Source: a virus
IMG/VR virus record: IMGVR_UViG_3300028392_000113
Coordinates: 1-43,266 of that record
DNA length: 43,266 nucleotides
Direction: 5' to 3' (one strand)
In this document: one piece after another, positions 6,405-29,001 of the stretch
Layout of the letters: each line of letters opens with the position of its first letter
Position numbering within the stretch: position 1 is the stretch's first letter
Translations under genes and position numbers: made by a program
The notes under the pieces: generated by a model
The model's input: only the letters and a program-made list of their open reading frames with translations
Databases searched by the model: none
Told to the model about the DNA's origin: nothing

Positions 6405-7730
6405 TCATCCCTGTTTTATTTGTCCCAATAGCTGTTTTAATTTATTACTCTGTACTTCAGCAGTGATCTTGCCCGACTCTTCTTGTGAATCATCTACTAC
6501 TTTGCTCTGAGTTTTAATACTGTTAAAAATATTAGGTTTATTATAAGCAGATACAGCACCAGCATCTTCTGGTAAATCAGTAATTCGCATGGTTTCGATG
6601 TTATATTCTAACTCAACTTTTTGCCCAGTACCGTTACTGGTACGTGTTTTCATACATTGTAACTGATATCTTCCTCGCTCTTTCATAGCGCGGCTAGTAA
6701 AGATGCCGAACACGTTATCAGCTGTGTTTATCTTACTGATTCCGCCAGATATATGACTATGATCGTATTCAATTTCTTCCACGCTGCTGCGATTTAACTG
6801 ACTAGCTGTAACCAATAATACATTAAGCTCTTTGGCTAAATTCCTCAATTCTTCACTGACATATTTGTCTTTGATAAACAAGTCATTTGGACTCACCTTA
6901 GTAGATACCGGCATCAATAAATCTAGATAATCCATCATCACAAAGTCAATCTTCATGCCTGTCTGTACTTGAACTTCTTTGATATAACTTCGCACATCAT
7001 TAATATTACTCTGTGCCGGCAATGCTTTCATACGATATTTGCCGGCTTTTTTACCAAACATCTTAACTTTTAATTCTGCGGTTTCCAGATCTTTTCTGAT
7101 GTCTTTTGTGGACATTCCGGATAGCATGGCATCAGTTCTTAATCCACATAATTCTTCACTAAGCTCTAAACTTATATAAACTCCGCTTAATCCTTGTTCT
7201 AGCCAGCTCAATGCTATATTCATCATCACGAGACTTTTACCCGAATTATGACTACATATACCATTAGTATAGTATCTATGATTATCATGATTAACCGAAA
7301 GATCATATACTTTAGTTTGTTTACTTTGCGGAAGAATATTGATTACAGTATCTACACCGTTTTCCGAAAGCAAAGTACTTCCAATCGGAATATCACGAGC
7401 ATAATGCCATTGCTGATCGGGAGATTGATATAAATGATCATGACTCGCAACAATCTTTTTACCTGAAGCAAACTCAAAGGTATATAAATCCTTTTTAACT
7501 TTTTCAATACAATCCAACACAGGAACCCAACCATCTGGACTAGATACAAGTATATTGTTTTCATGTACTTTTCCCATTAAGCTACCTATTGGTACCTGCT
7601 TAGGCTGTGTGAGATTGTACAATTTAACAACTTTTTCGGGCTTGCCTTTTGCGTATGTATCAATTTGAGCATAGGTATAAAACTGTTTTAAATAAGCAAG
7701 CTCAGTTGATAAATTTTCATAGTAGTTCAT
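6405..7730 (-). CDS. 41: Split intein C-fragment fused to C-terminal half of gp41 replicative helicase
   Basis: A 441-residue precursor. Residues 1-162 are an intein C-fragment: block B with H around VASHDHLYQS (94-103), block F at VYDLSVNHDNHRYYTNG, and the terminal block G ICSHN. Residue 163 is Ser, the +1 nucleophile, beginning SGKSLVMM, the second half of Walker A. The C-extein (279 residues) carries the DnaB/gp41 Walker B region FVMMDYLDLLM and the TASQLNRS sensor. Joined to the 183-residue N-extein at 8913-9461 it gives 462 residues; T4 gp41 has 475. Its ATG lies inside the 3' end of the endonuclease gene (14-bp overlap), so its translation is probably coupled to that gene. Without trans-splicing this half lacks a complete P-loop. 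Confidence 0.92.
   Translation of the reverse strand: MNYYENLSTELAYLKQFYTYAQIDTYAKGKPEKVVKLYNLTQPKQVPIGSLMGKVHENNILVSSPDGWVPVLDCIEKVKKDLYTFEFASGKKIVASHDHLYQSPDQQWHYARDIPIGSTLLSENGVDTVINILPQSKQTKVYDLSVNHDNHRYYTNGICSHNSGKSLVMMNIALSWLEQGLSGVYISLELSEELCGLRTDAMLSGMSTKDIRKDLETAELKVKMFGKKAGKYRMKALPAQSNINDVRSYIKEVQVQTGMKIDFVMMDYLDLLMPVSTKVSPNDLFIKDKYVSEELRNLAKELNVLLVTASQLNRSSVEEIEYDHSHISGGISKINTADNVFGIFTSRAMKERGRYQLQCMKTRTSNGTGQKVELEYNIETMRITDLPEDAGAVSAYNKPNIFNSIKTQSKVVDDSQEESGKITAEVQSNKLKQLLGQIKQG
7245..7730 (-). other. gp41 intein C-fragment (162 residues)
   Basis: The intein part of the precursor, ending in His-Asn before Ser+1. It is longer than the other three C-fragments: the first ~50 residues are an extra helical, Tyr-rich segment before the first clear intein strand. 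The block F/G end (NHRYYTNGICSHN) closely matches the UvsX C-fragment end (NHRYWGDGISSHN), so the two inteins are related. Confidence 0.88.
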
Positions 7731-8814
7731 TGATCGTAAACCTTTTGTTAAATAAATCGTCGCACCACATTACTACATACATTACGTCTGGATATTTTTC
7801 TAAAATATGATTTCGTTTTGCTAAATCATTTTTATAAGACTCGCCATATGTACCCAAATGTGTTAAAGTTCTTTGGCCTATTGTAATTGGAACATGTTCT
7901 AATTCATCTCGGTAATCTGAAAAGTTGATATGCCCTGGGCCGTGGAATTCAAAAATAAGTTTTAACTTTTTGTGTGTCTCGTCTTCGTATACTGCCAAAT
8001 CATATCGTCTATAACCAACATTGGAAATATTCTGCCAAAATTGTTCACTCGGAGCTCCAAATCTACAACATAATATATTAATATCATTTGCAGCAATAAA
8101 TCCGCGTATTGCTTGCATTTCCTTGCCATTTGGATTGAATGACATTGGCAAGGTAACCATGGCATGCTGGTATCTGTCTTTAGTTTTCCATGTTTCTTTA
8201 CGTTTATCAATAGATTGCTGATGTCGTAATGTGCCTTCTTCTATACCGTATCTATCAATGAAAAATGCAAGATCACGTTTTTGAAAATTAGAAACTATAT
8301 CAATTGCCTCGTCTTCTGAGTAGCCATTACGAATCCAATAGTCTTTCGACCTCACAGAATATAGCCCGGTTCCTTTACTCATTGCTCCAAATTTTCTACC
8401 TCTTTCTTGCTGTACTTTTTTAATCTTTTGAGTTATTTCCTCTTCGCTTAACCCAGAATCAGCCCAGCCTTCTCTAGTATTCTTTAACTGTTTTTTAAGT
8501 CGATCTACCATCGAGGTATGAGTTGTTTTCCAGTTGTCGCCGTACATTAATTTATGCCATTCAAGGCCATTGGCTTGACATTTAGACAAAGCCTCTCTCC
8601 TAGCTACCCAGTCTCCCAACGAATTAACTATCCAAATAGCTATATTTTTTCTCCATACCCCTGATCTATCTTCGTCGGGATATTCATTAAAAAACTCAGC
8701 TAACATCGCTTCTTCCTCGGCACTAGGAACATATCCAATTGGCAATATATTCCTTACTTGTTTTAATCCCATAAAAAAATCTACTGTACTTTTTTTGTTT
8801 CCATGCGGTTTCAT
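7717..8814 (-). CDS. Free-standing Vsr-like homing endonuclease inside fractured gp41
   Basis: A 365-residue protein between the two helicase halves. Residues 110-180 hold two copies of a helical repeat, the second SVRSKDYWIRNGYSEDEA; the same module occurs in the UvsW and UvsX endonucleases. The C-terminal third carries a Vsr/PD-(D/E)XK-like core: YDLAVYED (D272), then FEFHGPGHINF (E289, H291, H295), then a YVVMWCDD strand equivalent to WE.DY in the sisters. The core is more divergent than theirs (GPGH instead of GDYWH). Families of this kind (EDxHD/Vsr-like) accompany split inteins in metagenomic phage DNA. The likely role is cleavage of intein-free helicase alleles. AGGAG ribosome site; late-type box within a hairpin just upstream. 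Confidence 0.82.
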   Translation of the reverse strand: MKPHGNKKSTVDFFMGLKQVRNILPIGYVPSAEEEAMLAEFFNEYPDEDRSGVWRKNIAIWIVNSLGDWVARREALSKCQANGLEWHKLMYGDNWKTTHTSMVDRLKKQLKNTREGWADSGLSEEEITQKIKKVQQERGRKFGAMSKGTGLYSVRSKDYWIRNGYSEDEAIDIVSNFQKRDLAFFIDRYGIEEGTLRHQQSIDKRKETWKTKDRYQHAMVTLPMSFNPNGKEMQAIRGFIAANDINILCCRFGAPSEQFWQNISNVGYRRYDLAVYEDETHKKLKLIFEFHGPGHINFSDYRDELEHVPITIGQRTLTHLGTYGESYKNDLAKRNHILEKYPDVMYVVMWCDDLFNKRFTINELL

Positions 8815-8825
8815 CGTTCTCTCCT

Positions 8826-8849
8826 GTAAGCATATTTATTTATGCTTAC
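8826..8849 (-). promoter_or_regulatory. Hairpin containing a late-type promoter box before the gp41 endonuclease
   Basis: On the minus strand GTAAGCATA and TATGCTTAC form a 9-bp stem around a 6-nt loop. The left arm and loop contain CATAAATA (8837-8844), a T4 late-type box. The AGGAG ribosome site follows directly. In T4, I-TevI is controlled by a late promoter lying inside an mRNA hairpin, so early read-through and late transcripts would fold differently here too. It could also attenuate read-through from the helicase N-half. Confidence 0.6.
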
Positions 8850-8852
8850 GGT

Positions 8853-9461
8853 TTAGGAATAGGGTATAATTGGTAATTCAACGATAGTAACCATAGTATC
8901 AGCAGTTACACACCCACTGCCACCGGCAAACACGTTTAATTCGCCACGGCTAAATCCACCATATAGTATCTTATCGAGACTTGGCCATCCTGTGCTGACC
9001 TGTCCGCCGCTGTTAAAATATCTATTATTTCGTTCAGAAGGACTATCAAAATAGTCAGTGCCCATGTCTTTCTGTAGGCTTATCTGTACAGCATCTTTGA
9101 TGAGTTTTTCCACTGGGCCAAAATCACCTTTTTCCAATAGATCATACGATTTGAGGATAGCCCTCGATAATTCTTCACGTTTTGTAAATCCCTCAAATTC
9201 TTCCATGAACCATTCGATAGTTCCGTCTGGTAGTTCGGATAGCTTAGAGAGACTGACCCCTGTAGCCGCAGATACTTGTTCAAATATCGGCAATGCTCCA
9301 TGCTCATCATAATGTGTTTTAACAAATTTTGCTGCCGACTGTAAACCTTTGTCAAAGTTAGCGGGATTATAGATATTTTGTACCCGAACAAATGACTCAG
9401 CATCATTTAAGAGTATTTCCAAGAATAATTTCTGAACTTCAAGCCCGTAATCGTTTAACAA
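8853..9461 (-). CDS. 41: N-terminal half of gp41 replicative helicase fused to split intein N-fragment
   Basis: Begins LLNDYGLEVQKLFLE and includes VQNIYNPANFD, typical of the gp41 N-terminal domain, then the RecA-fold start FSRGELNVFAGGSG. At that point Walker A is broken and the frame continues CVTADTMVTIVELPIIPYS before TAA. Those 19 residues contain only intein block A with Cys1. The start is taken as TTG at 9461, 6 nt after an AAAGGA site; an upstream TTG at 9482 lacks such a site. The N-extein is 183 residues. The start overlaps the 3' end of the primase gene, as expected for the coupled gp61-gp41 primosome. Confidence 0.9.
   Translation of the reverse strand: MLNDYGLEVQKLFLEILLNDAESFVRVQNIYNPANFDKGLQSAAKFVKTHYDEHGALPIFEQVSAATGVSLSKLSELPDGTIEWFMEEFEGFTKREELSRAILKSYDLLEKGDFGPVEKLIKDAVQISLQKDMGTDYFDSPSERNNRYFNSGGQVSTGWPSLDKILYGGFSRGELNVFAGGSGCVTADTMVTIVELPIIPYS
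8856..8912 (-). other. gp41 intein N-fragment (19 residues)
   Basis: Cys1 follows GGSG of the interrupted P-loop. Block A (CVTADTMV) is canonical; nothing of the usual ~90-residue N-part follows, so this is an atypically split intein whose missing strands are supplied by the C-fragment. Confidence 0.85.
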
Positions 9462-10422
9462 GTTTTTTCCTTTGTATCTCAATTTTATATTTGTTTGTTT
9501 CTCTGGACTGCAATATAATTAGTATAGTTGCTAACCTGCCCATAGTAATTACCGCATCATTGACATCCTTTATTCCATTAGGCCAATCTGGCATACTTAC
9601 AGCCCAGCCCAATTCTATCGCTCGTTCTACTAATTTCATACCCGCCAGATCTTGATCGGGTATTACGGTTACTGTTTTTCCCAGATTTTTAATCAACTGT
9701 ATCTGTTTAGAATTTATATCATTATGTAGTACGGCTACAGCATCGATAGATAACGCATCGAAAATGCCTTCTACTACGAAAAGATGATGCCACGACTCTC
9801 GTTGCAGATCTGCCCCAAATACATAGCCCTGTTGCATATCTGAAATATATTTCGGGGTGCGAGTATCTAAAAATCTCGCGGTATTACCCACTAGCATGCC
9901 TTGATGTGTAAACGGTATCACGATGCGATTGGCCAATCTACCGTCGGCATCAGGCGATACCATATAAGGATAGGCAGTGTGATCTAGACTTCTAGATGAC
10001 AAATACTCTATATAAACAGTATGTCGGGAATTGGCGTCGTCAATTAATTCTAATCCAACTGGCAAATCTCGTTCTGCAAATTCCACATTAGGCACTGTTT
10101 GCTTAGTAGTTTCCAATAGGCCATGTATAGTTCGATGCCGTAAACTTTCCAGATTGATTTCTTCGATCAATTTAAAATCAACGCCCATCCATGTGAGGAA
10201 TTGTCGTGCTTTAAATGTGAGACTACGTCCTAGTACAAAACTGGCAGTATATCCGCAATTAAAACAAGCATAATACCAGCCTTCATCGGAGCTTTTGAAA
10301 CCTCCTCGCTGCTTACGGTCTTGATTTTCCCCGCGATGATGACAACAGACAGCGTTGAATGTAATCCAACCTGAACTATTACGTTTATGCTTAACGGGTA
10401 ATAAAGAAATTACATCAACCAT
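9439..10422 (-). CDS. 61: DNA primase (gp61-like)
   Basis: A 327-residue bacterial-type primase. The N-terminal zinc site uses CCHHRGE near residue 25 and CFNCGY near 54. The TOPRIM domain shows LFVVEGIFDALSID (Glu motif), VIPDQDLAGMKL (DxD motif) and DVNDAV. It makes RNA primers for lagging-strand synthesis and acts with the gp41 helicase, whose gene overlaps its 3' end. Length fits T4 gp61 (342). A sigma-70-like promoter lies immediately upstream with the -10 hexamer only a few bases from the ATG, and no ribosome site is present, so a leaderless message is possible. Confidence 0.9.
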   Translation of the reverse strand: MVDVISLLPVKHKRNSSGWITFNAVCCHHRGENQDRKQRGGFKSSDEGWYYACFNCGYTASFVLGRSLTFKARQFLTWMGVDFKLIEEINLESLRHRTIHGLLETTKQTVPNVEFAERDLPVGLELIDDANSRHTVYIEYLSSRSLDHTAYPYMVSPDADGRLANRIVIPFTHQGMLVGNTARFLDTRTPKYISDMQQGYVFGADLQRESWHHLFVVEGIFDALSIDAVAVLHNDINSKQIQLIKNLGKTVTVIPDQDLAGMKLVERAIELGWAVSMPDWPNGIKDVNDAVITMGRLATILIILQSRETNKYKIEIQRKKLVKRLRA

Positions 10423-10427
10423 GCTAA

Positions 10428-10456
10428 ATTATAGCAGATTATACAGGGTAATTCAA
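10428..10456 (-). promoter_or_regulatory. Candidate early (sigma-70-like) promoter of primase-helicase
   Basis: On the minus strand TTGAAT, a 17-bp spacer and TATAAT precede the primase. The -10 box ends only 5 bp before the ATG, so the transcript would start at or near the start codon. A second TATAAT lies 10 bp further upstream but without a good -35 box. Confidence 0.5.
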
Positions 10457-10468
10457 GTACTTTGACTA

Positions 10469-11626: not shown

Positions 11627-11632
11627 ACATAT

Positions 11633-11640
11633 TATTTAGT
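11633..11640 (-). promoter_or_regulatory. Late-type promoter box for tail protein
   Basis: Minus-strand ACTAAATA, 6 bp upstream of the ATG at 11626. A second box, GCTAAATA, lies at 11667-11674. With a box on the + strand at 11690 this makes a divergent late promoter region of under 100 bp. Confidence 0.4.
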
Positions 11641-11689
11641 GGATATTAAAGTTCCTGTTGTAATGATATTTAGCCATGAATTTTGAACA

Positions 11690-11697
11690 ACTAAATA
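11690..11697 (+). promoter_or_regulatory. Late-type promoter box (+ strand)
   Basis: ACTAAATA on the + strand, 22 bp before the ATG of the 11720-12097 gene, one of the two + strand genes. Confidence 0.4.
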
Positions 11698-11719: not shown

Positions 11720-12097
11720 ATGACCAACGAAATCTTCACTAAATTAACCGATAAATATCCCTTCATAACTCTGTGCTTGTATGCTAGTCAAGAATACGTT
11801 GGTATAATACAAAATCAAGATAATAGCATAACCACCATCTATGATTTTGGTAGCATAACCGACCTCGAAACTAAGAAAAAGTTTTTAGAATTAGCTAACA
11901 TATGGTGGTGGGAAAGCAACAGAACAGTACCCATCAATATATTTCTAAAACATGAGTGGCAGCCGTTTAGAACTTATCTGCGTACTTTCATGAATAAAGA
12001 CTTAGAAATTTTACATGGGCCAGTATGTAGTTTAAGTGAAATTGCTCGCAAGAAAAGTAAAAGAAAATCTATTACTTTAGTTAGACGTATCGAGTAA
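11720..12097 (+). CDS. Conserved phage protein on + strand, unknown function
   Basis: A 125-residue protein beginning MTNEIFTKLTDKYPFITLCLY. It has a beta-rich first half (YVGIIQNQDNSITTIYDFG), a Trp cluster (ANIWWWESNRTVPINIFL) and a basic C-terminus RKKSKRKSITLVRRIE. No enzyme motif is visible. The basic end suggests nucleic-acid or virion contact. It is transcribed opposite to its neighbours from a divergent promoter region and overlaps the convergent 12077-12646 gene by 21 bp. The coding signal is good, so it is not an antisense shadow: nothing occupies the opposite strand over most of its length. Confidence 0.65.
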   Translation: MTNEIFTKLTDKYPFITLCLYASQEYVGIIQNQDNSITTIYDFGSITDLETKKKFLELANIWWWESNRTVPINIFLKHEWQPFRTYLRTFMNKDLEILHGPVCSLSEIARKKSKRKSITLVRRIE

Positions 12098-12646
12098 GTT
12101 CATGTGTAGTGCTACTAACATTGAATAACTAAGCGAGTGCGCTTTCTTAAATACGAACCCCCGACTAGCATCACCATCCCAAACACTATCAAATATCTCA
12201 CTCCAAGGTTTATTCTGTAAATGTGCCTTTCCTGGACGTATAACAGCTATAAAAGCAGCCATGCGGGGTATCGAATCAGGGCGCATAGTCTTCAATAACT
12301 CTGTATAATTCCCTATATGTACTAACTGTTTAGCCCATTCGGCGTCTTCCCACAGCCTATTCCAAGTTGGCTCTTTTGCCAACATTTCTTCATAGTGATC
12401 TGGGTCTTTTATTAATTGATATACCGACATATTCAAAAGATCAATCTTAAAATAACCTCTAATCCCGGCATCTTCGTAGTCTATGGCAGCACAATTATTG
12501 ACAGGATCATAGGGAATATCCGTCACGTAAATACCGCTGTTATGTTTTCGAACTGGAGTTTGACCACGCAGTCTCGCAGGCGTATGTTTAATAAGATGTA
12601 AAACTTGTTCGCGATCTGCTAAATCTATATCGATATCTGCGCTCAT
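12077..12646 (-). CDS. Miniature DNA polymerase III alpha (DnaE)-like protein
   Basis: A 189-residue protein aligning by eye with scattered active-site blocks of bacterial DnaE. ADIDIDLADREQVL matches PDFDVDF...RDQVI (catalytic D401/D403; here D6/D8). RKHNSGIYV matches GKHAGGVVI. GYFKIDLLN matches LVKFDFLG (K553/D555; here K67/D69). LLKTMRPDSIPRMAAFIAV then IRPG matches the DnaE QPD...FRPG block. FKKAHSLSYSM matches FNKSHSAAYAL. All three metal-binding Asp are kept although the protein is one sixth of DnaE's length and lacks PHP, most finger and C-terminal regions. Whether it polymerises, binds DNA or acts as a decoy is unknown. The ATG at 12646 overlaps the upstream stop (TGATG); two upstream GTG codons are less likely. 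Confidence 0.72.
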   Translation of the reverse strand: MSADIDIDLADREQVLHLIKHTPARLRGQTPVRKHNSGIYVTDIPYDPVNNCAAIDYEDAGIRGYFKIDLLNMSVYQLIKDPDHYEEMLAKEPTWNRLWEDAEWAKQLVHIGNYTELLKTMRPDSIPRMAAFIAVIRPGKAHLQNKPWSEIFDSVWDGDASRGFVFKKAHSLSYSMLVALHMNLLDTSN

Positions 12647-13320
12647 CACCACCCTGCCTTTATTAAGATTTCCTGCGCTTCGGCTCGATTAGCCGGATCT
12701 TCGCGTAATTTTTTCGTCCATACATCAGCATCAATATACGGCCAGATGATGCTACGTTGTTCTTCATTTAATTCAGATAAAAATCTCTGCCCAGATTCAG
12801 ATGTATACAATACCCATGCGCTAATACGACCACTTATGATGGCGTGTATTATGGTATTGGGATTACCATATCTTAAAAAATCATGTGGGGGAGCATCTTT
12901 ATCTTCGGACCATGTAATAGAATATTCAATAGCCCGAGCTAACGCATCTTCCATGCGCTCTAATTTAAGATATTGAAGAAGATATTCTTCATAAAGTTTA
13001 TCACTACACCAATAGTCTAACTTTTTATTCTGTTTAAGTACCCACTCGGTAAATCTTGCAGGATTGATCACCTTGGTATCGACGCAATATCTTCCAAATT
13101 TTACAAATGCTTTATAATACGGACTTTCAGCAAAATCCTCATAAGTTTTTAACTTTGCTGAGCCTTGTGTAAGCTCATAGAATTTTAAATAAGCATTAAA
13201 ACCCATACGTACACCTACTTCATCTCGCTCAGTATGCCTACGTCTTGGCTCGCAACTATGTACAGTGAGACTAGACTCTTTTATAAAATCTCGTTTACAA
13301 TACTGACACGTATACTTCAT
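12646..13320 (-). CDS. Zinc-finger protein, unknown function
   Basis: A 224-residue protein with an N-terminal zinc finger CQYCKRDFIKESSLTVHSC (C5, C8, H and C ligands), followed by a helical domain (NAYLKFYELTQGSAKLKTYE). The region after residue 90 (RFTEWVLKQNKKLDYWCSDK) is rich in aromatic residues. It ends directly on the start of the DnaE-like gene (TGATG), so the two are translationally coupled and may act together on DNA. Zinc fingers of this kind are common in T4-like phage accessory proteins. The exact role is not recognised. Confidence 0.65.
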   Translation of the reverse strand: MKYTCQYCKRDFIKESSLTVHSCEPRRRHTERDEVGVRMGFNAYLKFYELTQGSAKLKTYEDFAESPYYKAFVKFGRYCVDTKVINPARFTEWVLKQNKKLDYWCSDKLYEEYLLQYLKLERMEDALARAIEYSITWSEDKDAPPHDFLRYGNPNTIIHAIISGRISAWVLYTSESGQRFLSELNEEQRSIIWPYIDADVWTKKLREDPANRAEAQEILIKAGW

Positions 13321-14503: not shown

Positions 14504-15925
14504 TTATTTCCACTCTAATTTCTCTTGAGTAAATGGATAGTTTGCATCTTTATAAAATGCCTTTCTCTTTTGTAGATGTCTTTTAGCGAAACGACATGTT
14601 GATGTAACATCCCAGATTTCAACATGATCTTTATCTTCTGCTTTGCGTATACCACGACCAATTGATTGTATGACGCGCACAAAGCTCTTGCCAGGTTCCA
14701 CCAATACCAAATTAAAAATTCTAGGAATGTTTATACCGACAGCAGCGACCCCGTAAGTTGCTACAATGATTTTGTCAGTACTGGTAGCAACTTCATTGTA
14801 TTCTTCATCACGTTGTGTTCCTTTGGTGGCACCGCTGACAAAGACTGCCCTCTCTCCTAGCATTTCAACTAATGCATGCCCTGCTGCTACTCTATCTACT
14901 AAGACTAAGGTATTTCCTGTCGCATTTACTTTTGTTACCAAATCTGCAATAACCTTAAGTCTATCCGTGTCTTCGAGTAGAAATTTTAATTCATTTTGAT
15001 ATGTGGGAAAATCAGCATGATCTACTAATTGTACGATGTTTACGTGACACTGTGCTAATACACCTCGATCTTGTAATTCGCTAGCAGATAGTCGATTAAT
15101 AACTGGCCCAAGACTTATATTCAGTGCCTGTGCTTCGGAAATTTCTTTAGGCACTGTGCCTGTTAAGCCCCATCGAATTGGTATTTTAGACATCACACCA
15201 GTTAAGAGTGTCTTTAACGCATCAGCTTTAGCCATATGTACTTCATCAACCATCACACAAACAACATCTTCTAAAAAATCTTGTATAGTATAGTCACCAA
15301 CAGCATTTTTAGTATTTTTCATTAAAATATTAAGGCTTTGCCAAGTACATATGGTATGTGTTTTACCAAACTCTTTTCTATCACCAAAAAATACGCCTAC
15401 ATCTAACCCCAATCCGCGATAATCCTTTTCAGTTTGTGTAACCAGAGATTTGTTTGGGACAATCACTATAGTGCGTCCGTGCGCTTCGCATCGCTGACTT
15501 AATGCCGCGGTCATGATGGTATTATGATGTATCAGTCCGTTGGCATCATAATATAAATGCGGAGCATCAATCCCAACATCAAAACAATCTTCGTCAACTT
15601 CGTTAGTTATTTTTGTTATGGCAACGCTTCCCAACAAATGATCTACAGTAGACCCAACATCTAGATATTTTACAAAAATATCATTATCGTTTTGACGCAA
15701 TATATGATTCTTGGCAACTTTAATAGAATACCCGTTATTAAAATGTAGTTTGACCATTGGTAAATTACATTTTTTAATAAACCAATTAACTTTTGCTTTT
15801 TTATCTAAAGCAGGGACATATATATCTAAATCAGAGGTAGAGATTTCTACATTATCGTCTAACTTAGTGTTGGTAAACTCTTCAATATATTCTGCTAATT
15901 TTCCAATTGATAAATCTAATATCAC
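14504..15925 (-). CDS. uvsW: Split intein C-fragment fused to C-terminal half of UvsW helicase
   Basis: A 473-residue precursor. Residues 1-135 are an intein C-fragment with block B at VAKNHIL, block F at CFDVGIDAPHLYYDANG and the end LIHHN. The +1 residue is Thr, the hydroxyl residue completing Walker A (GAGK|T). The 338-residue C-extein carries superfamily 2 helicase motifs: VDEVHM (DEVH box), GLTGTVPK and QSIGRGIRK (motif VI). Spliced length is 486; T4 UvsW has 503. UvsW unwinds branched DNA and R-loops. The start is GTG at 15925, overlapping the endonuclease stop as GTGA; no other start exists near the N-terminus, so translation is coupled. Confidence 0.9.
   Translation of the reverse strand: MILDLSIGKLAEYIEEFTNTKLDDNVEISTSDLDIYVPALDKKAKVNWFIKKCNLPMVKLHFNNGYSIKVAKNHILRQNDNDIFVKYLDVGSTVDHLLGSVAITKITNEVDEDCFDVGIDAPHLYYDANGLIHHNTIMTAALSQRCEAHGRTIVIVPNKSLVTQTEKDYRGLGLDVGVFFGDRKEFGKTHTICTWQSLNILMKNTKNAVGDYTIQDFLEDVVCVMVDEVHMAKADALKTLLTGVMSKIPIRWGLTGTVPKEISEAQALNISLGPVINRLSASELQDRGVLAQCHVNIVQLVDHADFPTYQNELKFLLEDTDRLKVIADLVTKVNATGNTLVLVDRVAAGHALVEMLGERAVFVSGATKGTQRDEEYNEVATSTDKIIVATYGVAAVGINIPRIFNLVLVEPGKSFVRVIQSIGRGIRKAEDKDHVEIWDVTSTCRFAKRHLQKRKAFYKDANYPFTQEKLEWK
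15521..15925 (-). other. UvsW intein C-fragment (135 residues)
   Basis: Ends in His-His-Asn before Thr+1. Block B has the A-x-N-H form (VAKNH) also seen in the UvsX intein. The first residues (LSIGKLAEYIEEF) look like the strand-helix that usually follows block A, some of which is also present in the 41-residue N-fragment. Confidence 0.85.
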
Positions 15926-16929
15926 TTAATAAAATCCTTACATTGTTGTATAATTGCAGCGGGGTCGTTAATGTAGTCATTCTCCCAAATTATCAGTACA
16001 CTATATCCATTATTTTTCAAATCTTGTATTTTACGTTGATCGTGATCCCAGACATCTTTAACTTTCTTTTTCCGTATTATGTCTTCGGGTTTGTAAATTT
16101 TAGGATTTCCATGCCAATAATCGCCATAGTATTCTATAATTTTGTTATTATGCAAATAATCAACCCGATGCACTTTTTGTTTTCCGCGTATTGTTTTTTC
16201 ATTAGGGCCATACAATCCAACTTCTAAATGTTCAAATAATTCTTGAGATTTTTTACTTCTGTTAGCTGTCATAGCTTTATTACCTGGAGCATTTAGCCAT
16301 TGTTCGATGCGCTTTTTAAATAATTCTTCCCCGGCAGATCCGTACTTGTTGATATAAAATTTTAATCCATTTGTAGTTTGTACTAGTTTAATTTTAGATT
16401 CAGACTCTTCGAAAGTATATCCCTTTTTCATCCAATATTCAATCGTTCTAACTGAATAACCACGAACTCCTTTCTTACTAACAGGAGATTTTGCTGAGCG
16501 TTCTTTTTGTATGCTAGATACCTTTTCCTTCGCTTGCTCTATGGTATATCCTTTATCACACCAATATTCTATAGTATTACTAAGTCCTTTACATTTTTCT
16601 CGATTAACTGATTGTATTGCCTTAGTTGCTTGATCATCAGTTAATATACAATTTAATTTATCTTTTGTCATTAAATGAGTGCCATCGTTCGCGCAATCAC
16701 AATTGGTACAAGCTATAAAATTTCCTTTATACATAGTGAGATTTAATCTAGTTCCACATTTCAGACAATTTCTAGTTGCGATTTTGAACTCAGATCGCAT
16801 AAAATAACGACTACTATAAACAGGTTCATTTATATAGTCTATTAAATCCCACTTGCTAATACCGTTAAGGGTACACAATCTTAACCAACTTTTCTTTTCA
16901 TAATTTTCTATTATTTGTTGTAACGTCAT
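15922..16929 (-). CDS. Free-standing Vsr-like homing endonuclease inside fractured uvsW
   Basis: A 335-residue protein. A zinc ribbon CLKCG...CTNCDC lies at about residues 54-78. Two helical repeats follow: TIEYWCDKGYTIEQAKEKV and TIEYWMKKGYTFEESESKI. Next comes the catalytic core HRVDYLHNNKIIEYYGDYWH, with GNP following, which resembles the Vsr core (D...F.DG.FWHG), then WDHDQRKIQDLK and VLIIWENDY. It is the most canonical of the three related enzymes here. Its ATG lies inside the intein N-fragment coding sequence of uvsW (32-bp overlap), and its stop overlaps the start of the C-half. The likely target is the P-loop region of intein-less uvsW. Confidence 0.83.
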   Translation of the reverse strand: MTLQQIIENYEKKSWLRLCTLNGISKWDLIDYINEPVYSSRYFMRSEFKIATRNCLKCGTRLNLTMYKGNFIACTNCDCANDGTHLMTKDKLNCILTDDQATKAIQSVNREKCKGLSNTIEYWCDKGYTIEQAKEKVSSIQKERSAKSPVSKKGVRGYSVRTIEYWMKKGYTFEESESKIKLVQTTNGLKFYINKYGSAGEELFKKRIEQWLNAPGNKAMTANRSKKSQELFEHLEVGLYGPNEKTIRGKQKVHRVDYLHNNKIIEYYGDYWHGNPKIYKPEDIIRKKKVKDVWDHDQRKIQDLKNNGYSVLIIWENDYINDPAAIIQQCKDFIK

Positions 16930-17467
16930 TTCCCTGCCCCTGTTGTAACTTATTTACTATAAATTTACCAAAAGGAGTATTTTCATCTATATCTATAGAT
17001 AATAACGTATCACCTGACAAACATTTACCAGCCCCAGTTGCTACCTCCTGTACACACTGAGGATTAGACAAAAAATTATTGATGATGTCTACTTGGTAGT
17101 CACGAAGAATGATTGGCTTACCTGCTGCGGGATGCCCTTCGCCCCAATTAAGGTGATTAAATGTTGACTCAGTCACCTTAGTAAATTCATAAACTGTAGA
17201 ATAATCACGCTGATCATCTAAATCGATATCATAATTAAATTTGTCTAAGATAGGTACGATATCAGGGAGTAAATTTAAGAAAGTACTGCCGCCTAATTGA
17301 AAAAATGAGACTTTTCCGTCCCATCGTCCCAATCTCACGGCGGGCAGATATCTCGCCCCCGGAACATCATATTTGAATGCGTTTACAAGAGCACGTCGGG
17401 CATCGGGTTCTAGCCCAACTAATTTGCAATTGACTTCGTCTTTGATTTCTATTATACACTTTTTCAT
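16898..17467 (-). CDS. uvsW: N-terminal half of UvsW helicase fused to split intein N-fragment
   Basis: Begins MKKCIIEIKDEVNCKLVG. It includes the N-terminal UvsW domain (RLGRWDGKVSFFQ), the RDYQVDII Q-motif region and the start of motif I, QEVATGAGK. There the frame enters intein block A (CLSGDTLLSI) and continues 41 residues to the stop. The N-extein is 148 residues. The ATG is preceded by the terminator of the AAA ATPase gene and a TTGACT element that could be part of a promoter, though no good -10 box is seen at the right distance. Confidence 0.9.
   Translation of the reverse strand: MKKCIIEIKDEVNCKLVGLEPDARRALVNAFKYDVPGARYLPAVRLGRWDGKVSFFQLGGSTFLNLLPDIVPILDKFNYDIDLDDQRDYSTVYEFTKVTESTFNHLNWGEGHPAAGKPIILRDYQVDIINNFLSNPQCVQEVATGAGKCLSGDTLLSIDIDENTPFGKFIVNKLQQGQGNDVTTNNRKL
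16901..17023 (-). other. UvsW intein N-fragment (41 residues)
   Basis: Cys1 follows GAGK of Walker A. Block A is CLSGDTLL. It is the longest of the four N-fragments; its last ~10 residues are encoded in sequence that also encodes the endonuclease start in another frame, so this tail may be a by-product of the overlap. Confidence 0.82.
16951..16958 (-). promoter_or_regulatory. Weak late-type box before uvsW endonuclease
   Basis: Minus-strand AGTAAATA, 22 bp upstream of the endonuclease ATG and within the intein N-fragment coding sequence. It is a degenerate match, noted because the other three endonuclease genes have a better box in the same place. Confidence 0.25.
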
Positions 17468-19965: not shown

Positions 19966-21219
19966 TTATTCTGCAGCATCGATACCATCAACATCAGCTT
20001 CGTCGACAGGGACACTAACTTGAGTTTTTTGAGAAAACTCTTGCATTACTAGATCAAAAATGCCGTTTTCGTTACGGTTCCATTCTTTGCGGAAATACTT
20101 ATGTATCTCACCATTCAAATCAACATAGGTATAACGATTGCCATCTTTAGCGATGAGATTTTTCTTTTCCAGTAGATCAAACATACCTGAATAAGGACTC
20201 ATCCCAGTATCGTAAGGAATACGCACTTCAATGTCTTCAAAAGGTTTGGCATATCGTGTTTTCATTATCTTACAACCTGCGCGAATGCCATTTACTGTGG
20301 AAGTTTTATTGCCATCTTCATCTTCCTTGAGCTTGAGTTTTTTCATCGCTACTACAATACTACTAGCATATACGAAACCTTGCCCACCACTGATATTGGG
20401 ATCTGGATTATAAGGATCTTGGCTAGCATACGTGTGATTAGTCGCAACCAACCCTACATTGTAACTACCAAACATATTAACACAATTACGTACCAATGCT
20501 GTCAATGCTTTGGGTTTACGCCCCATGTCACCTTTCATATCACCACTATCAAACTGATTGACATCGGTGGGAGTAAGTAGCATGCCTAGACTATCGATAA
20601 CAAACAATATCTTGGGACGTTCGCCTTCTGCTAATGTCTTATAATCTGACATAAAAGCAGAAATAGTTTTTGCTACATCGTCGATCATAGCCATACTTAA
20701 TTTAAGCAATTTACTTTCACTAGTATCCACGCCTAGCGCATGTAACCAAGTTTCATCAAGAGCATTTTCTGTGTCGATTAGAACTACGTAAATGCCCTGC
20801 TCTTGAGCATTTTTAACGATATTTCCTGCGCAAATATAACTTTTGCCGCTATTGTGACTAGAAATTCCATCTCCCCAATATCTATGATTTGGATGTAAAA
20901 TTTCAAAGTCATAACACTCTTCATTTTTAGATGATTTAATATCTAATACTGGTTCAGCACCAGACTCAGTTATAATCACATCACCGACCGAAAGTTCTAC
21001 AGCCAAAACCCACTTTCCATCTTCTAGTTGGATCATATGATTTTCGGCACAAGTAGTAGAATGGGATTTAGTCGTTACTAATACCATTGGCAAAGATCCT
21101 TTATCAAACCATTGCCCAATAGGTTGATAGCCGTCCGGAGTATCCAATTCGATATTGTACAATCCAGAATCATACAAAATTTTAAGCTCGCCTACACTTA
21201 TTTGTTTTTCTTCAATCAT
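19966..21219 (-). CDS. uvsX: Split intein C-fragment fused to C-terminal half of UvsX recombinase
   Basis: A 417-residue precursor. Residues 1-123 are an intein C-fragment: block B at CAENHMIQL, block F at CYDFEILHPNHRYWGDG, the end ISSHN, then Ser+1 in SGKSYICAG. The 294-residue C-extein is the RecA-type core: YVVLIDTENALDETW, ILFVIDSLGMLLTP (Walker B), VGLVATNHTY and NISGGQGFVYAS (loop 2), with an acidic tail DEADVDGIDAAE. Spliced length is 359; T4 UvsX has 391. UvsX performs strand exchange in recombination-dependent replication. The ATG overlaps the endonuclease stop by 8 bp. Confidence 0.93.
   Translation of the reverse strand: MIEEKQISVGELKILYDSGLYNIELDTPDGYQPIGQWFDKGSLPMVLVTTKSHSTTCAENHMIQLEDGKWVLAVELSVGDVIITESGAEPVLDIKSSKNEECYDFEILHPNHRYWGDGISSHNSGKSYICAGNIVKNAQEQGIYVVLIDTENALDETWLHALGVDTSESKLLKLSMAMIDDVAKTISAFMSDYKTLAEGERPKILFVIDSLGMLLTPTDVNQFDSGDMKGDMGRKPKALTALVRNCVNMFGSYNVGLVATNHTYASQDPYNPDPNISGGQGFVYASSIVVAMKKLKLKEDEDGNKTSTVNGIRAGCKIMKTRYAKPFEDIEVRIPYDTGMSPYSGMFDLLEKKNLIAKDGNRYTYVDLNGEIHKYFRKEWNRNENGIFDLVMQEFSQKTQVSVPVDEADVDGIDAAE
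20851..21219 (-). other. UvsX intein C-fragment (123 residues)
   Basis: Ends His-Asn before Ser+1. Together with the 15-residue N-fragment this makes a mini-intein of 138 residues with no internal endonuclease, a compact and typical splicing-domain size. Confidence 0.88.
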
Positions 21220-22348
21220 TTGATTTTCCTAATATATTATCCGCTAAATTGTTTATAACCATAGTTGGATTACGTCTATAGTCACTTTCCCAAACTACTA
21301 TCAATTGCCTTACATTTTTTGACTTTTTAATTTTATCTACCCTAAAATTGTCAGTATTCCATTTTTCAGTCGACGAATACCCAAACATAGTAAAATCAGC
21401 TTCATACAGAAGTGGGTTTCTGTGAAAGAAATCGCCGTAAAATTCTATAACTGTACCAGACTCTTTATGGAAGAAATCTACTCGATATCCGTATATTAGA
21501 TACTCGTAATTTTTAGTCTGATAGTATGTTGTACCTTGAATTTTTGAATCTAACTTAGTAAATAAATCTTGCGATATAATCGACCAGGTTTGATTAGGTT
21601 TGGCTCGCATTCTGTCACGATATTCTTGATTTTTCGCTAAAGCGTCTTCTAAAGTATTACCTCGGGCTATGAATCCGCTTACGCTATGAGATTTTTTCTT
21701 GTTGATCAAATCTTTTTCTTTTTCTGTCTTACTATTTAAGGTACTAAGCCATTGCTTTATTCGAACATCATATCTTGCTCTACCTTCCGCTTCGCCATAT
21801 TTCTTCACATAAAAGTCTAACCCATTCGTAGATTGAATTTCCTTAACTTTTTCTTTAGCCTGACTCTCAGTTAATCCCCGATTAATCCAAAAACTTAAAG
21901 ACCTGCAAGAATATATACTAACGCCTCTTGTTTTTTCGGCAGAAATATTGCTTCGTTTAGCTTGAATGTGCGATACTTGTTTTTCAGCCTCTTCTTTAGT
22001 ATATCCAAGATTTATCCAATAACTATCAATGTTCTTAAAGTGTGCTGTTCGCTTTCTATTCTGAAGATCTACTATGGATTGAAAATTCCGCTTGCCATAT
22101 CTTATCAATTGAGTATAATTGCTTGTTCCGTTTATTCCTTTTAGTCTCCGCAACCTTCCTTCATAATTGTTGAGATCGTAAAGTACGAAATAGGCTATTG
22201 TAGCATGCATATTTTCAAGTGCCTTACATGTTGATTTTGCAAATAATTTATTCAATCTAATAACATGCTCATTAGTTAATGTTTTATCTTTTAAAATTTC
22301 TTTCACAGCTTTGCGTTTCAAAAATTTTTTTGCTTGTTCTACCAGCAT
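21212..22348 (-). CDS. Free-standing Vsr-like homing endonuclease inside fractured uvsX
   Basis: A 378-residue protein. It starts with a Lys-rich helical region, then helical repeats: NIDSYWINLGYTKEEAEKQV and SLSFWINRGLTESQAKEKV, then FYVKKYGEAEGRARYDVRIK, which has a direct counterpart in the uvsW enzyme. A third divergent repeat (SVSGFIARGNTLEDALAKNQ) follows. The catalytic core is YRVDFFHKESGTVIEFYGDF, then FHRNP, with the late strand LIVVWESDY. AAGGAT ribosome site 9 nt upstream. A perfect late box (TATAAATA) lies at 22376-22383 in the 65-bp gap after the uvsX 5' half. Likely cuts intein-less uvsX genes. Confidence 0.83.
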   Translation of the reverse strand: MLVEQAKKFLKRKAVKEILKDKTLTNEHVIRLNKLFAKSTCKALENMHATIAYFVLYDLNNYEGRLRRLKGINGTSNYTQLIRYGKRNFQSIVDLQNRKRTAHFKNIDSYWINLGYTKEEAEKQVSHIQAKRSNISAEKTRGVSIYSCRSLSFWINRGLTESQAKEKVKEIQSTNGLDFYVKKYGEAEGRARYDVRIKQWLSTLNSKTEKEKDLINKKKSHSVSGFIARGNTLEDALAKNQEYRDRMRAKPNQTWSIISQDLFTKLDSKIQGTTYYQTKNYEYLIYGYRVDFFHKESGTVIEFYGDFFHRNPLLYEADFTMFGYSSTEKWNTDNFRVDKIKKSKNVRQLIVVWESDYRRNPTMVINNLADNILGKSND

Positions 22349-22413: not shown

Positions 22414-22656
22414 TTATTTTTTAGTTAAACGTACATTCACCTTCGCAGATTTAGGCAAACAGCCACTTTCTCCCGCGAAGACCGTAACTTTTCCCAGCGG
22501 AATACCACGGGTAAAGGATCCGCTGATCAAATAATTAAGAGCATAATTACCTGTACTAATCCAATCAGTTGGATCATTAAATCCAACACTAAGCCCGTCA
22601 ATTGACTTTGTGATGTCGCGACGGAACTTGCTAATGTCAAAAGGCTTCATAGCCAT
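22414..22656 (-). CDS. uvsX: N-terminal part of UvsX recombinase fused to split intein N-fragment
   Basis: An 80-residue protein. Residues 1-65 are the start of UvsX (STGNYALNYLISGSFTRGIP, then KVTVFAGESG), ending in the middle of Walker A. They are followed by CLPKSAKVNVRLTKK and a stop. This 65-residue N-extein has no activity alone: it lacks both nucleotide and DNA binding, so splicing is required for any recombinase. AAGGA ribosome site. A strong hairpin between gp32 and this gene may limit read-through. Confidence 0.9.
   Translation of the reverse strand: MAMKPFDISKFRRDITKSIDGLSVGFNDPTDWISTGNYALNYLISGSFTRGIPLGKVTVFAGESGCLPKSAKVNVRLTKK
22417..22461 (-). other. UvsX intein N-fragment (15 residues)
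   Basis: CLPKSAKVNVRLTKK. Cys1 is present but the usual Asp-Thr of block A is replaced by Ser-Ala, and the fragment is shorter than the other three. It is assigned because the C-fragment has all its motifs and the P-loop is restored exactly on removal. Confidence 0.78.
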
Positions 22657-23725: not shown

Positions 23726-23798
23726 AATATGTTGCCTTCCTTTTAAATTAAAATATGCTGCCTATCTAAATATATAGATTTTATGTGCTTGCCTAGCA

Positions 23799-23804
23799 AT
23801 TATA
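23799..23804 (-). promoter_or_regulatory. Candidate -10 box upstream of gp32
   Basis: Minus-strand TATAAT after GATGTG, 74 bp upstream of the gp32 ATG and just after the hairpin that ends the previous gene. No clear -35 box at 17 bp. Confidence 0.35.
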
Positions 23805-23830
23805 CACATCTAGGTCTGTGTTTACTACTT

Positions 23831-23864
23831 ATATGGAATATAATATCATCTTTATATTCCATAT
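23831..23864 (-). terminator. Terminator-like hairpin after the 766-residue structural gene
   Basis: ATATGGAATATAA and its reverse complement form a 13-bp stem with an 8-nt loop, 8 bp after the TAA stop. No long T-run follows. It separates a late virion gene from gp32 and probably terminates or processes the transcript. Confidence 0.6.
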
Positions 23865-23871
23865 TCTATAT

Positions 23872-26172: not shown

Positions 26173-26176
26173 AGTG

Positions 26177-26184
26177 TATTTATG
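26177..26184 (-). promoter_or_regulatory. T4-type late promoter box, 4 bp from ATG
   Basis: Minus-strand CATAAATA, then CACT, then the ATG at 26172. The transcript would begin at or next to the start codon. Confidence 0.5.
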
Positions 26185-26185
26185 G

Positions 26186-27259
26186 TTAATACATAGAGGC
26201 TATAAATGGCAAAGGCGGAGTCATGGTCTCCCCGAAGTCACGCATCTGTGTATCCATCTCAGGGTGATAAGTTTGCAACAATACCATCATTCTAGTTACC
26301 AAGATAGTGGCCATCACCAAATCATCAGTTTGGCCAGGTTTGGCGGCATAGCTTAGTCCGTGTGCTACAAATGTCTTAAGTTCTGATATTAACGGTTTAC
26401 TGTTTAACTTCATCTTACCTGACTCTATTAGTGTCTTTAATTTAGCACAGGCTGTGAGTTTATTTTTAGGACTAGTGTTAAAACCTTTACGATATCTACC
26501 TGGCCCACGATGAGGATCAGATAAGAAATATCCTTTTATGTTTTCTTCTCCGTATTGATCTATGGAAATTAATGCCGCCTCTCCGATAGTATTATTTTCC
26601 ACACTATAATAAACACTTTGTTCATCACCCACAATATTGTATATGTACTGTACAATATCGGCCAATATTCTAACTTGTTCAGGAATAGTAGTGCGATTGT
26701 GTTTCCACTCGCCTATCTGCTCAGTCGAATTCGCTTCAAATATCTGTATAGCAGAAGGATCGCCACCTGTACCTAGACTAGGGTCTAATCCCACACAATA
26801 CATTTTTCCTTTCTCGGGAGTTTTATACCATCGCACCTGTGATGTTTTATGTGTGGGCTCCGTGCCTTCTAAATCGATTAATTTTGCCGGAGCGATCAAT
26901 GTTTCATCGGCTATAATAAATTCGCAGTTTGAAACTAAAATATTATTGGCAAAAAATCTATAATTATTTTTTACATTTAGTAAATCATATACTTGTTCTT
27001 TGTCAGCAAGTTTAATACTGACTACTCGTTGAATGCCTATTCTAGTGTGAATCTTCATGCCTGGTCTTAAATTTTTCACTGCTATTTTGTCAAGTTGCTC
27101 AGTGAATATGGCGTGATCAAGTGTTGCTCGAATATTACTAGATGACAGTTGTAATTCTGCTGTTTGTTGTATACCTTTTAGAGATAATCCGTCAAAATTA
27201 CTCCATCCAGTATCTGTTAAAACTTGTAACCCTAAATTATTTTTTAGAAATACGTCCAC
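26186..27259 (-). CDS. 17: Split intein C-fragment fused to C-terminal half of large terminase gp17
   Basis: A 357-residue precursor. Residues 1-111 are an intein C-fragment: block B RATLDHAIFT, block F VYDLLNVKNNYRFFANN, and an end ILVSN that lacks the usual penultimate His. Cys+1 begins CEFIIADETLIAP. The 246-residue C-extein has the RNase H-like nuclease domain of TerL: MYCVGLDPSLGTGGDPSAI, VYYSVENNTIGEAAL and GQTDDLVMATIL hold the acidic residues. Spliced gp17 would be 519 residues. The start is GTG at 27259, about 10 nt after an AAGGA site inside the endonuclease gene (23-bp overlap). Confidence 0.9.
   Translation of the reverse strand: MDVFLKNNLGLQVLTDTGWSNFDGLSLKGIQQTAELQLSSSNIRATLDHAIFTEQLDKIAVKNLRPGMKIHTRIGIQRVVSIKLADKEQVYDLLNVKNNYRFFANNILVSNCEFIIADETLIAPAKLIDLEGTEPTHKTSQVRWYKTPEKGKMYCVGLDPSLGTGGDPSAIQIFEANSTEQIGEWKHNRTTIPEQVRILADIVQYIYNIVGDEQSVYYSVENNTIGEAALISIDQYGEENIKGYFLSDPHRGPGRYRKGFNTSPKNKLTACAKLKTLIESGKMKLNSKPLISELKTFVAHGLSYAAKPGQTDDLVMATILVTRMMVLLQTYHPEMDTQMRDFGETMTPPLPFIASMY
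26927..27259 (-). other. Terminase intein C-fragment (111 residues)
   Basis: Ends Val-Ser-Asn before Cys+1. Penultimate His is replaced by Ser, a variation known in some inteins that still splice. Block B keeps T-x-x-H (TLDH). Confidence 0.85.
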
Positions 27260-28061
27260 GCACGAATCCTTCTGGCTGAGAATTTAATTTATATTGTCTA
27301 TTTACAGTGCCATTGTTAAACCACAATAATCCTTGCTTTGTACTTTTTCTAGGTTTTCGACCTTTGACAAATCCCTCTGGACATGTAAAACTATACTGCT
27401 CAATCTCTCCGTTATTAAACCAAGTTTTTCCAGTGGCTATTCCTGTACGACCTTTATTAGCATCACTAATTTTCTTGCAGCGTTCAGGATCCCTCAAATA
27501 ATCGTAGTAACCAGGAACAGATCGCGCAGATTCATAGGATTTCCTATCTGCGTCAGACCATTTAAATCCTTTTTTACGACCGCCTATACCTGGACGTTTA
27601 ATCCCTCTATTTGGAGCAGGTTTTCCAAACATTGGATTTTTTTCTCCCTTCTTAGATTCCGACAACCGAGCTGACGTTTCTTCGGTAACAGGAGGTACTA
27701 TTCTGCCAGTATTCATTTGAGAGACCCTAATTGCTATTTGTTCTCTTAACTTAGCATATACCTTGCTAGTTATTTTAATCGTACGCCCATCTTTATCGCG
27801 GGTGGTGGCTAAACGCCAAAAGGCGAATAGCATTTTAGTTTGATATATGCCTTCGGTACATTTAGTTAACAAATGATGACAAACATAATGTTCATTGGCA
27901 GTCAGCAGTACTAAATTTTCTTTGTTATTTGTGCCACCAAAAGATTTAGGAATAATATGATGATTTTCAAATCGAGTTTCATTTGTTTTTACTCGAGGTA
28001 AACTTTGTGCTTTTTTAATAATTGCTAGATATTTGTAATAATACTTATTATGTATAAACAT
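27237..28061 (-). CDS. Free-standing HNH homing endonuclease inside fractured terminase gene
   Basis: A 274-residue protein unrelated to the other three endonucleases. The HNH domain is near the N-terminus: RFENHHIIPKSFGG, NKENLVLLTANEHYVCHHLL (residues ~31-65). A NUMOD3-like DNA-binding motif follows (KKGEKNPMFGKPAPNRG), then two C-terminal repeats: TWFNNGEIEQYSFTCPEGFV with KGRKP after it, and LWFNNGTVNRQYKLNSQPEG. These modules are typical of phage HNH homing enzymes. The late box CATAAATA ends 5 bp before the ATG and no ribosome site is visible, so a very short leader is likely. Confidence 0.85.
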   Translation of the reverse strand: MFIHNKYYYKYLAIIKKAQSLPRVKTNETRFENHHIIPKSFGGTNNKENLVLLTANEHYVCHHLLTKCTEGIYQTKMLFAFWRLATTRDKDGRTIKITSKVYAKLREQIAIRVSQMNTGRIVPPVTEETSARLSESKKGEKNPMFGKPAPNRGIKRPGIGGRKKGFKWSDADRKSYESARSVPGYYDYLRDPERCKKISDANKGRTGIATGKTWFNNGEIEQYSFTCPEGFVKGRKPRKSTKQGLLWFNNGTVNRQYKLNSQPEGFVRGRISKK

Positions 28062-28066
28062 AAGGA

Positions 28067-28074
28067 TATTTATG
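28067..28074 (-). promoter_or_regulatory. T4-type late promoter box before terminase endonuclease
   Basis: Minus-strand CATAAATA in the 25-bp gap between the terminase 5' half and the HNH gene, 5 bp from its ATG. Confidence 0.5.
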
Positions 28075-28086
28075 TATTTGCCCAGT

Positions 28087-29001
28087 TTACAATCGTAACA
28101 TTTGTTCTAATTGATTAATTGATATACGTCTAATCTCACCAGTGGTAAACTTAATATCAACTAAAGAATTTCCAGCTAAACAACAAATTTCACGTAAAAA
28201 CCGATCTTCCCCGAGCTGTGCTTTCATATCTGCTGCCCAGGCGTCATCTCTGTCGGGGTGTTCGTTCCAGTAACTACGGTAAGGTCTAAATCCGTTTATT
28301 CCAACTTCTTGCGGATTGCCGTGGCTATCCTCCAGCTTGTTTGCGCCCTTCCATAATAGCGCGAATTGATCTTCATCGCTATTGGGAGTGCTTGTAATAA
28401 TAGCTTTACCACCAGTTGCTAATGTTGGTGCGATAGAAGTCCAGAATTCCGATGCGATTGTAGGTCGGACGAAGGCAAACTCGTCACAGTAAAGTAAAGA
28501 TATACTCATACCGCGACCAGTATTTTCAGTAGTGGTGGCAGATACTATGCGTGATCCATTTTCAAATTCTATCGAACCTTTATTGTAATTCGTTGCCCCG
28601 GCTCGTATATGATCAGGGCATAATTCATATGCATATCTTACGCGAGTCATAATTTCTTGTGCGCCATCAAATTTATGAGCTGCAATCAACACCGTGCTAT
28701 CAGGCACAAACATAGCATACCACAGTAAGTAGCCGGCTGCCGACGTACTTTTTCCCGACTGTCTGGGCATCATGGCAATAGAAAATCTATAATTGTGATA
28801 AGTGTCGATTAATTTTTTCTGATATTCAAAAGGTTGATACAGCATCTTACCCTGTGTAGAGTGCTGAATATAGAAAAAGTTGCTCATGAAGTACTGCGGC
28901 CCTGTGTCAGGATCAACACACAGGGCAAATTCAGTCAGCTGCTCTGCTGTCCAATTTTCTTTTTTGTATGGAGTTTTTGCTAGGCTCGAGGCATCAAACA
29001 T
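28087..29001 (-). CDS. 17: N-terminal half of large terminase gp17 fused to split intein N-fragment
   Basis: A 304-residue protein carrying the whole packaging ATPase: FEYQKKLIDTYHNYRFSIAM adenine-binding region, MMPRQSGKSTSAAGY (Walker A), SLLYCDEFAFV (Walker B) and AIITSTPNS (coupling motif). The N-extein of 273 residues ends DRFLREIC. It is followed by CLAGNSLVDIKFTTGEIRRI and 11 more residues to the stop. Alignment with T4 gp17 around the break places the junction after the first of the two Cys. Here the intein separates motor and nuclease domains instead of cutting the P-loop. Consensus late promoter 4 bp before the ATG. Confidence 0.92.
   Translation of the reverse strand: MFDASSLAKTPYKKENWTAEQLTEFALCVDPDTGPQYFMSNFFYIQHSTQGKMLYQPFEYQKKLIDTYHNYRFSIAMMPRQSGKSTSAAGYLLWYAMFVPDSTVLIAAHKFDGAQEIMTRVRYAYELCPDHIRAGATNYNKGSIEFENGSRIVSATTTENTGRGMSISLLYCDEFAFVRPTIASEFWTSIAPTLATGGKAIITSTPNSDEDQFALLWKGANKLEDSHGNPQEVGINGFRPYRSYWNEHPDRDDAWAADMKAQLGEDRFLREICCLAGNSLVDIKFTTGEIRRISINQLEQMLRL
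28090..28182 (-). other. Terminase intein N-fragment (31 residues)
   Basis: Block A CLAGNSLV with Cys1 at 28180-28182. A second Cys directly before it belongs to the N-extein by alignment with the T4 terminase, although the alternative junction one residue earlier cannot be fully excluded. Confidence 0.83.

Follow-up and report, generated by a model that had tools for sequence, protein, structure and literature searches.

Split inteins in four replication, recombination and packaging genes of one phage, with a probable route back to contiguous inteins

Introduction

How does a phage obtain a working replicative helicase, recombinase and terminase when the gene for each has been broken in two? 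The question is raised by a window of 43,266 bases, the entire viral record IMGVR_UViG_3300028392_000113, in which gp41 (a DnaB-like replicative helicase), the UvsW helicase, the UvsX recombinase and the terminase large subunit (TerL, gp17) are each encoded on two open reading frames (ORFs) with an endonuclease gene between them. The explanation proposed here, which we regard as very probable, is that each gene carries a mobile split intein, with protein trans-splicing yielding gp41, UvsW, UvsX and TerL and the endonuclease spreading the element. Comparison with related contigs suggests, with good though somewhat lesser confidence, that fracture can be undone, natural split inteins having repeatedly turned back into contiguous mini-inteins through in-frame deletion of the endonuclease.

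Anatomy of the fractured genes

All four loci lie on the minus strand and share one layout. The N-terminal extein runs into an N-terminal intein fragment (IntN) and a stop codon, a free-standing endonuclease gene follows, and a further ORF encodes the C-terminal intein fragment (IntC) together with the C-terminal extein. The original prediction for this DNA had described this layout, with extein lengths of 183+279, 148+338, 65+294 and 273+246 residues for gp41, UvsW, UvsX and TerL, and both the arrangement and the lengths were recovered at the places it named. At each of the four loci the stop codon of the endonuclease gene overlaps the IntC start, which suggests that these two ORFs are translationally coupled.

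The gp41 N-extein (8913..9461, 183 amino acids [aa], ending FAGGSG) matches PHROG 19 with an E-value of 5e-16. Its ORF is open up to a TTG at 9482 (190 aa); because relatives have a stop at the second codon of this longer version, the TTG at 9461 is the better start. IntN (8856..8912) has 19 aa, CVTADTMVTIVELPIIPYS, and is followed by an endonuclease gene (7717..8814, 365 aa) of a divergent, putatively Vsr-like/EDxHD type. IntC (7245..7730, 162 aa), whose start overlaps the endonuclease stop by 14 nucleotides (nt), matches NCBIfam intein_Cterm at E 2.4e-6, above the curated cut-off. The C-extein (6408..7244, 279 aa) begins SGKS and matches PHROG 19 (E 9e-45). The split point falls inside the ATP-binding P-loop.

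The split in UvsX also lies inside the P-loop, between an N-extein of 65 aa (22462..22656, ending FAGESG; PHROG 97, E 5e-13) and a C-extein of 294 aa that starts SGKS (19969..20850; PHROG 97, E 5e-51, and Pfam RecA, E 1.4e-9). IntN (22417..22461) has only 15 aa, CLPKSAKVNVRLTKK, a VidaL-like split, and IntC (20851..21219, 123 aa) matches VidaL itself (6vgv, E 1.7e-46). The intervening endonuclease gene (21212..22348, 378 aa) is putatively Vsr-like/EDxHD, and its stop overlaps the IntC start by 8 nt.

The UvsW N-extein (17024..17467, 148 aa, ending GAGK) matches a PHROG DNA helicase family (E 3e-15) and, under the curated cut-off, Pfam UvsW_N (E 1.9e-4). It is followed by an IntN of 41 aa (16901..17023), a putatively Vsr-like/EDxHD endonuclease gene (15922..16929, 335 aa; weak match to Pfam MTES_1575, E 4.7e-4), an IntC of 135 aa (15521..15925; Pfam Intein_splicing, E 7e-5, under the cut-off) whose GTG start overlaps the endonuclease TGA as GTGA, and a C-extein of 338 aa beginning TIMT (14507..15520; PHROG 16, E 4e-61). 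Related contigs have a second UvsW intein site, at the DECH box (L012 1000-1720, L140 14350-15120, L237 17170-18860 and L143 8060-9700), where the intein is contiguous in some contigs and accompanied by an endonuclease-like ORF in others.

The TerL N-extein (28183..29001, 273 aa, ending FLREIC) matches Pfam Terminase_6N (E 1.5e-16), and the C-extein (26189..26926, 246 aa, starting CEF) matches PHROG 36964 (E 4e-43) and Pfam Terminase_6C. Between them lie an IntN of 31 aa (28090..28182), an endonuclease gene (27237..28061, 274 aa; PHROG 655 homing endonuclease, E 6e-39) with both HNH and NUMOD3 motifs according to Pfam, and an IntC of 111 aa (26927..27259) that has a GTG start, ends in VSN and matches Pfam Intein_splicing under the cut-off (E 0.007). 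This IntC begins inside the 3' end of the endonuclease gene, with an out-of-frame overlap of 23 nt. The same bases (27237-27259) thus encode RGRISKK-stop, the end of the endonuclease, in one frame and the beginning of IntC in another, and several relatives are alike in this respect.

Intein type and the joining of the exteins

Cys1, the block-B His, the block-F Asp, the terminal Asn and a Ser, Thr or Cys at +1 are present in all four window inteins, and the penultimate His in those of gp41, UvsW and UvsX. At every locus the complementary intein parts lie on two separate ORFs. An intein profile search had been suggested with the original prediction, and it supports the assignment: all four IntC match Pfam or NCBIfam intein/HINT models, most of them under the curated cut-offs. 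The four belong to the known atypical (N-terminal-split) type, in which the break falls after strand 2 (VidaL, PolB16) or after helix 1 (AceL-TerL, GOS-TerL) (PMC13014065). Known IntN of this type have 15-37 aa; the window fragments of 15, 19 and 31 aa fit this range, and that of UvsW exceeds it slightly (41 aa).

A profile built from contiguous relatives finds VidaL at E 1.9e-51. The fold evidence comes from the contiguous gp41 allele of contig L007 rather than from joined window inteins: its AlphaFold2 model has a HINT fold (mean predicted local distance difference test score, pLDDT, 90.9), and its best match in the PDB is VidaL (template-modelling scores 0.80/0.85). The least confident part of the model, residues 11-30 (block means 75 and 57), coincides with the position at which the window intein is split. 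For VidaL a splicing half-life of about 1 min has been reported (PMC13014065), and since the window inteins are homologous to it, trans-splicing of the window pairs is very likely by analogy. The N-extein with IntN and the IntC with C-extein would be made as separate polypeptides, the second from an ORF translated in coupling with the endonuclease, and would associate through their intein halves; attack by Cys1, branch formation at the Ser, Thr or Cys at +1 and cyclisation of the Asn would then release the intact protein.

Empty sites, spread and selection

Most homologues run uninterrupted across the junction (70 of 79 loci for gp41, 102 of 107 for UvsW, 128 of 134 for UvsX and 91 of 103 for TerL, counted as loci and not as independent genomes). 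The exteins therefore rejoin at the right places, as had been predicted from the restored motifs. In phage MIJ3, gp41, UvsW and TerL are intact and UvsX is split as in the window.

At gp41, the one site where spread as a unit is seen, the whole element (IntN, endonuclease and IntC) is identical between the window and contig L012 at 1659 of 1668 nt (99.5%). The flanking exteins share only 411 of 570 nt (ExtN) and 637 of 837 nt (ExtC), or 72-76%, and identity drops within about 20 bases of each splice junction. A near-identical element amid divergent exteins, with its edges at the splice junctions, indicates that the gp41 split element homed recently as one whole unit. In such a transfer, the endonuclease encoded between the halves would cleave the empty allele of a second phage infecting the same cell, close to where the exteins meet. 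The break would then be repaired from the fractured copy, bringing in IntN, endonuclease and IntC in a single event.

In each of the four genes both halves are under purifying selection, with ratios of nonsynonymous to synonymous change (pN/pS) against relatives of 0.02-0.24. These values are rough because synonymous sites are close to saturation, and the value for the gp41 N-extein was computed from a shifted start, given the upstream stop in the relative.

Reversal of the fracture

The usual account of gene fracture runs one way: the contiguous intein comes first, and invasion by an endonuclease breaks it in two. Relatives of the window suggest that the opposite step also takes place. In contig L007 the gp41 intein occupies a single open frame that is identical to the window at 461 of 462 nt outside a 1,206-nt cassette; the last 4 aa of the window IntN and about the first 22 aa of its IntC are absent from this contiguous allele, and contig L059 has the same contiguous junction. 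The cassette is flanked by AATT at both ends, and the contiguous allele probably arose by deletion between these two repeats. The reverse event, in which the cassette inserted and duplicated 4 nt of its target, would give the same picture but is less likely, since no transposase is encoded in it. Change from split to contiguous is thus favoured at gp41, and no more than favoured.

At the UvsX site the alleles include split inteins with an endonuclease, split inteins with an endonuclease remnant (L226), split inteins without endonuclease (L140) and contiguous inteins. Counted by distinct signatures, 20 UvsX alleles are split with an ORF of at least 150 aa, 7 are split without one and 16 are contiguous; the corresponding numbers for TerL are 48, 7 and 4. 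Starred branches of the UvsX tree force one change only. A scan of the other frames of the contiguous UvsX inteins found no endonuclease remains, and change at that site may have run either way.

Re-fusion is best supported at TerL. In the TerL tree three contiguous lineages are scattered among split ones, which implies three changes, two of them forced by starred branches. All three carry the endonuclease C-terminus (21, 19 and 11 residues) in an alternative frame, with E-values of 4e-13, 1.6e-9 and 7e-7 against 0.008 for the next best in the set, and in each the match ends at the last residue of the enzyme. Some of this sequence, about 8 codons, is simply where the endonuclease gene ordinarily overlaps IntC; in L434 and L444 the remains reach well upstream of that overlap. 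Because this out-of-frame C-terminus lies inside them, the simplest reading of the contiguous TerL inteins is that they descend from split ones that had an endonuclease. Decay of the endonuclease would accordingly have two outcomes: an intein that stays split but has no endonuclease, or a contiguous mini-intein produced by in-frame deletion. To our knowledge, reversal of gene fracture has not been described before.

Alternative explanations

Four features of the data count against the explanation proposed here. The penultimate His of the TerL intein is replaced by Ser. The record is a genome fragment, so intact second gene copies may lie outside it. The UvsX and gp41 junctions are alike, FAG(G/E)SG/SGKS (the slash marks the splice point), and this common junction makes cross-splicing between the two inteins conceivable; the sole point weighing against it is the low identity, 28%, of the two IntC. 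Finally, the Vsr-like label of three endonucleases rests on weak matches and conserved residues. The gp41, UvsW and UvsX enzymes, of which that of gp41 is the most divergent, have in common the E, D, H and D residues of a Vsr-like nuclease; in the EDxHD alignment D291, E302, D306 and D333 are invariant and H309 almost so. An initial endonuclease profile found no match in the PDB, and resemblance to Vsr is slight by sequence (E 0.6) and partial by fold (probability 0.98, TMt 0.53-0.59, E 0.3-0.4).

The first two of these features favour a rival reading in which some of the inteins are inactive, the TerL intein with its VSN end splicing poorly, for example, and intact copies elsewhere supply the function. 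This we consider very unlikely, given that the SN ending is kept in all five aligned TerL inteins and that both TerL halves are under purifying selection. Marginally less likely still is non-covalent assembly of the halves, with the intein pieces as mere leftovers. There is a precedent in a ribonucleotide reductase that was split by a homing endonuclease and functions as two chains (cited in PMC10448857). However, the intein catalytic residues are kept across deep divergence, even in split alleles that have no endonuclease, and the homologue VidaL splices rapidly, as noted above; moreover, UvsX and gp41 are both cut inside the P-loop, which makes non-covalent joining of these two implausible.

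An assembly or sequencing artefact, or a set of pseudogenes in a dying lineage, might be suspected since the window is a metagenomic contig, but it is scarcely credible when pN/pS is low in all halves, the same UvsX fracture is found in the isolated phages MIJ3 and PA5oct, relatives with an intact gene exist for every site, and three of the four fractures recur in near-identical contigs of other metagenomes. Among these contigs, L006 is 99.9% identical to the window over 15.5 kilobases (kb) spanning the gp41 locus and L060 is 99.5% identical over UvsW; in L308 and L465 UvsX and UvsW are both split.

Fractured genes in other phages

The window is a piece of a jumbo-phage genome. Among the annotated members of the phage collection it is closest to the jumbo phages MIJ3/PA5oct, Atu_ph07, Phosso and SCTP-2, and its minus-strand gene order, TerL, UvsX, UvsW, gp41, is that of MIJ3; megablast of the whole segment against phage records gave no match. 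Two other ORFs of the window have unusual lengths. One at 12077-12652 (191 aa), far below polymerase length, matches the DNA polymerase family phrog_11778 at E 1.9e-52, and the tail sheath gene at 38400-41813 encodes 1137 aa, against 915 positions in the matching family profile.

That every gap of the four genes holds an endonuclease between split intein halves stood up to all tests, but the further claim that four such genes together are exceptional did not. The IntC profile gave four matches in the window, six each in G003 (65.7 kb) and G037 (57.9 kb), seven in G041 (327 kb), and five apiece in vB_VmeM-32, G043 and G046; a match may also be a contiguous intein, and a single intein can yield two. 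Of the 40 records first surveyed, 23 had no match. The idea that the window is unique was therefore rejected, and it is better seen as a rich example of a wider pattern. G003 has UvsW in three pieces, along with split UvsX, NrdA and gp41 (the last at a different site). On the G037 contig, where UvsW and UvsX are also split, TerL is spread over four ORFs that encode three split inteins, and at least two endonuclease-like genes lie in the gaps (L470, 19246-23481). TerL is in three pieces with two inteins, at SLLYC and FRRExxC, in L221 and L228. ORFs with GIY-YIG-like and other nuclease-like sequences, as read by eye, occur at the TerL site of other phages, so that nucleases appear to be exchanged at this single split site.

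Fractured genes with split inteins are an already known kind. Those of Dassa et al. (2009, NAR 37:2560), as described in papers citing that work, likewise combine a split intein, a conserved gene and a free-standing endonuclease between the halves, and the endonuclease family was described as new. A partial literature search that excluded that report found no account of a phage with several fractured genes. VidaL (PDB 6VGV/6VGW) belongs to the same intein family and shares the N-terminal split and very short IntN. Its IntC is near-identical to that of the UvsX intein of contig L140, which is 63% identical to the window's and has lost the endonuclease that the window keeps. AceL-TerL and GOS-TerL are also natural TerL inteins split after the first helix, with IntN of 25-37 aa; compared by description rather than by sequence, the window TerL intein differs from them in its SN end and HNH/NUMOD3 endonuclease.

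Among isolates, the PA5oct/MIJ3 group (Arenbergviridae) has a UvsX that is broken at the residue where the window's is, and the IntN, endonuclease and IntC there are homologous to those of the window; the group differs in that gp41, UvsW and TerL are intact. Ten PA5oct-like isolates and SCTP-2 encode a VidaL-like IntC, which lies in UvsX where examined (MIJ3) or annotated. The MIJ3 genome paper reports a split PolB intein as its only intein, and the VidaL-type split-intein UvsX (L004, 25084-28090) is annotated as separate ORFs. The Vibrio phage vB_VmeM-32 has gp41 split at the same site as the window and UvsX, gp43 and TerL interrupted by inteins; unlike that of the window, its UvsX has a canonical split and a SegG-like gene. 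Inteins are not mentioned in its genome paper, the gp41 ORF with IntC and C-extein (L003/L005, KU160494.1 at about 65620-66757) has no annotated coding sequence, and the products of the remaining split genes are listed as hypothetical or as separate proteins.

Implications

If the proposed explanation is correct, replication, recombination and packaging of one phage would all run through protein trans-splicing, on which the phage would depend, and four split inteins would have to pair correctly within one cell. To speak of four essential genes, as the original prediction did, goes too far: in T4, gp41 and gp17 are essential, but phages mutant in uvsX or uvsW are impaired rather than inviable. 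The window would also provide a natural set of inteins with short IntN, usable for protein labelling. PA5oct-like phages grow on the laboratory strain Pseudomonas aeruginosa PAO1, and trans-splicing of a phage recombinase can therefore be searched for now. The relatives of the window form a natural series of alleles, from empty sites through split inteins with an endonuclease, with a decaying endonuclease and with none, to contiguous inteins, and with this series one can test how split inteins arise and what becomes of them.

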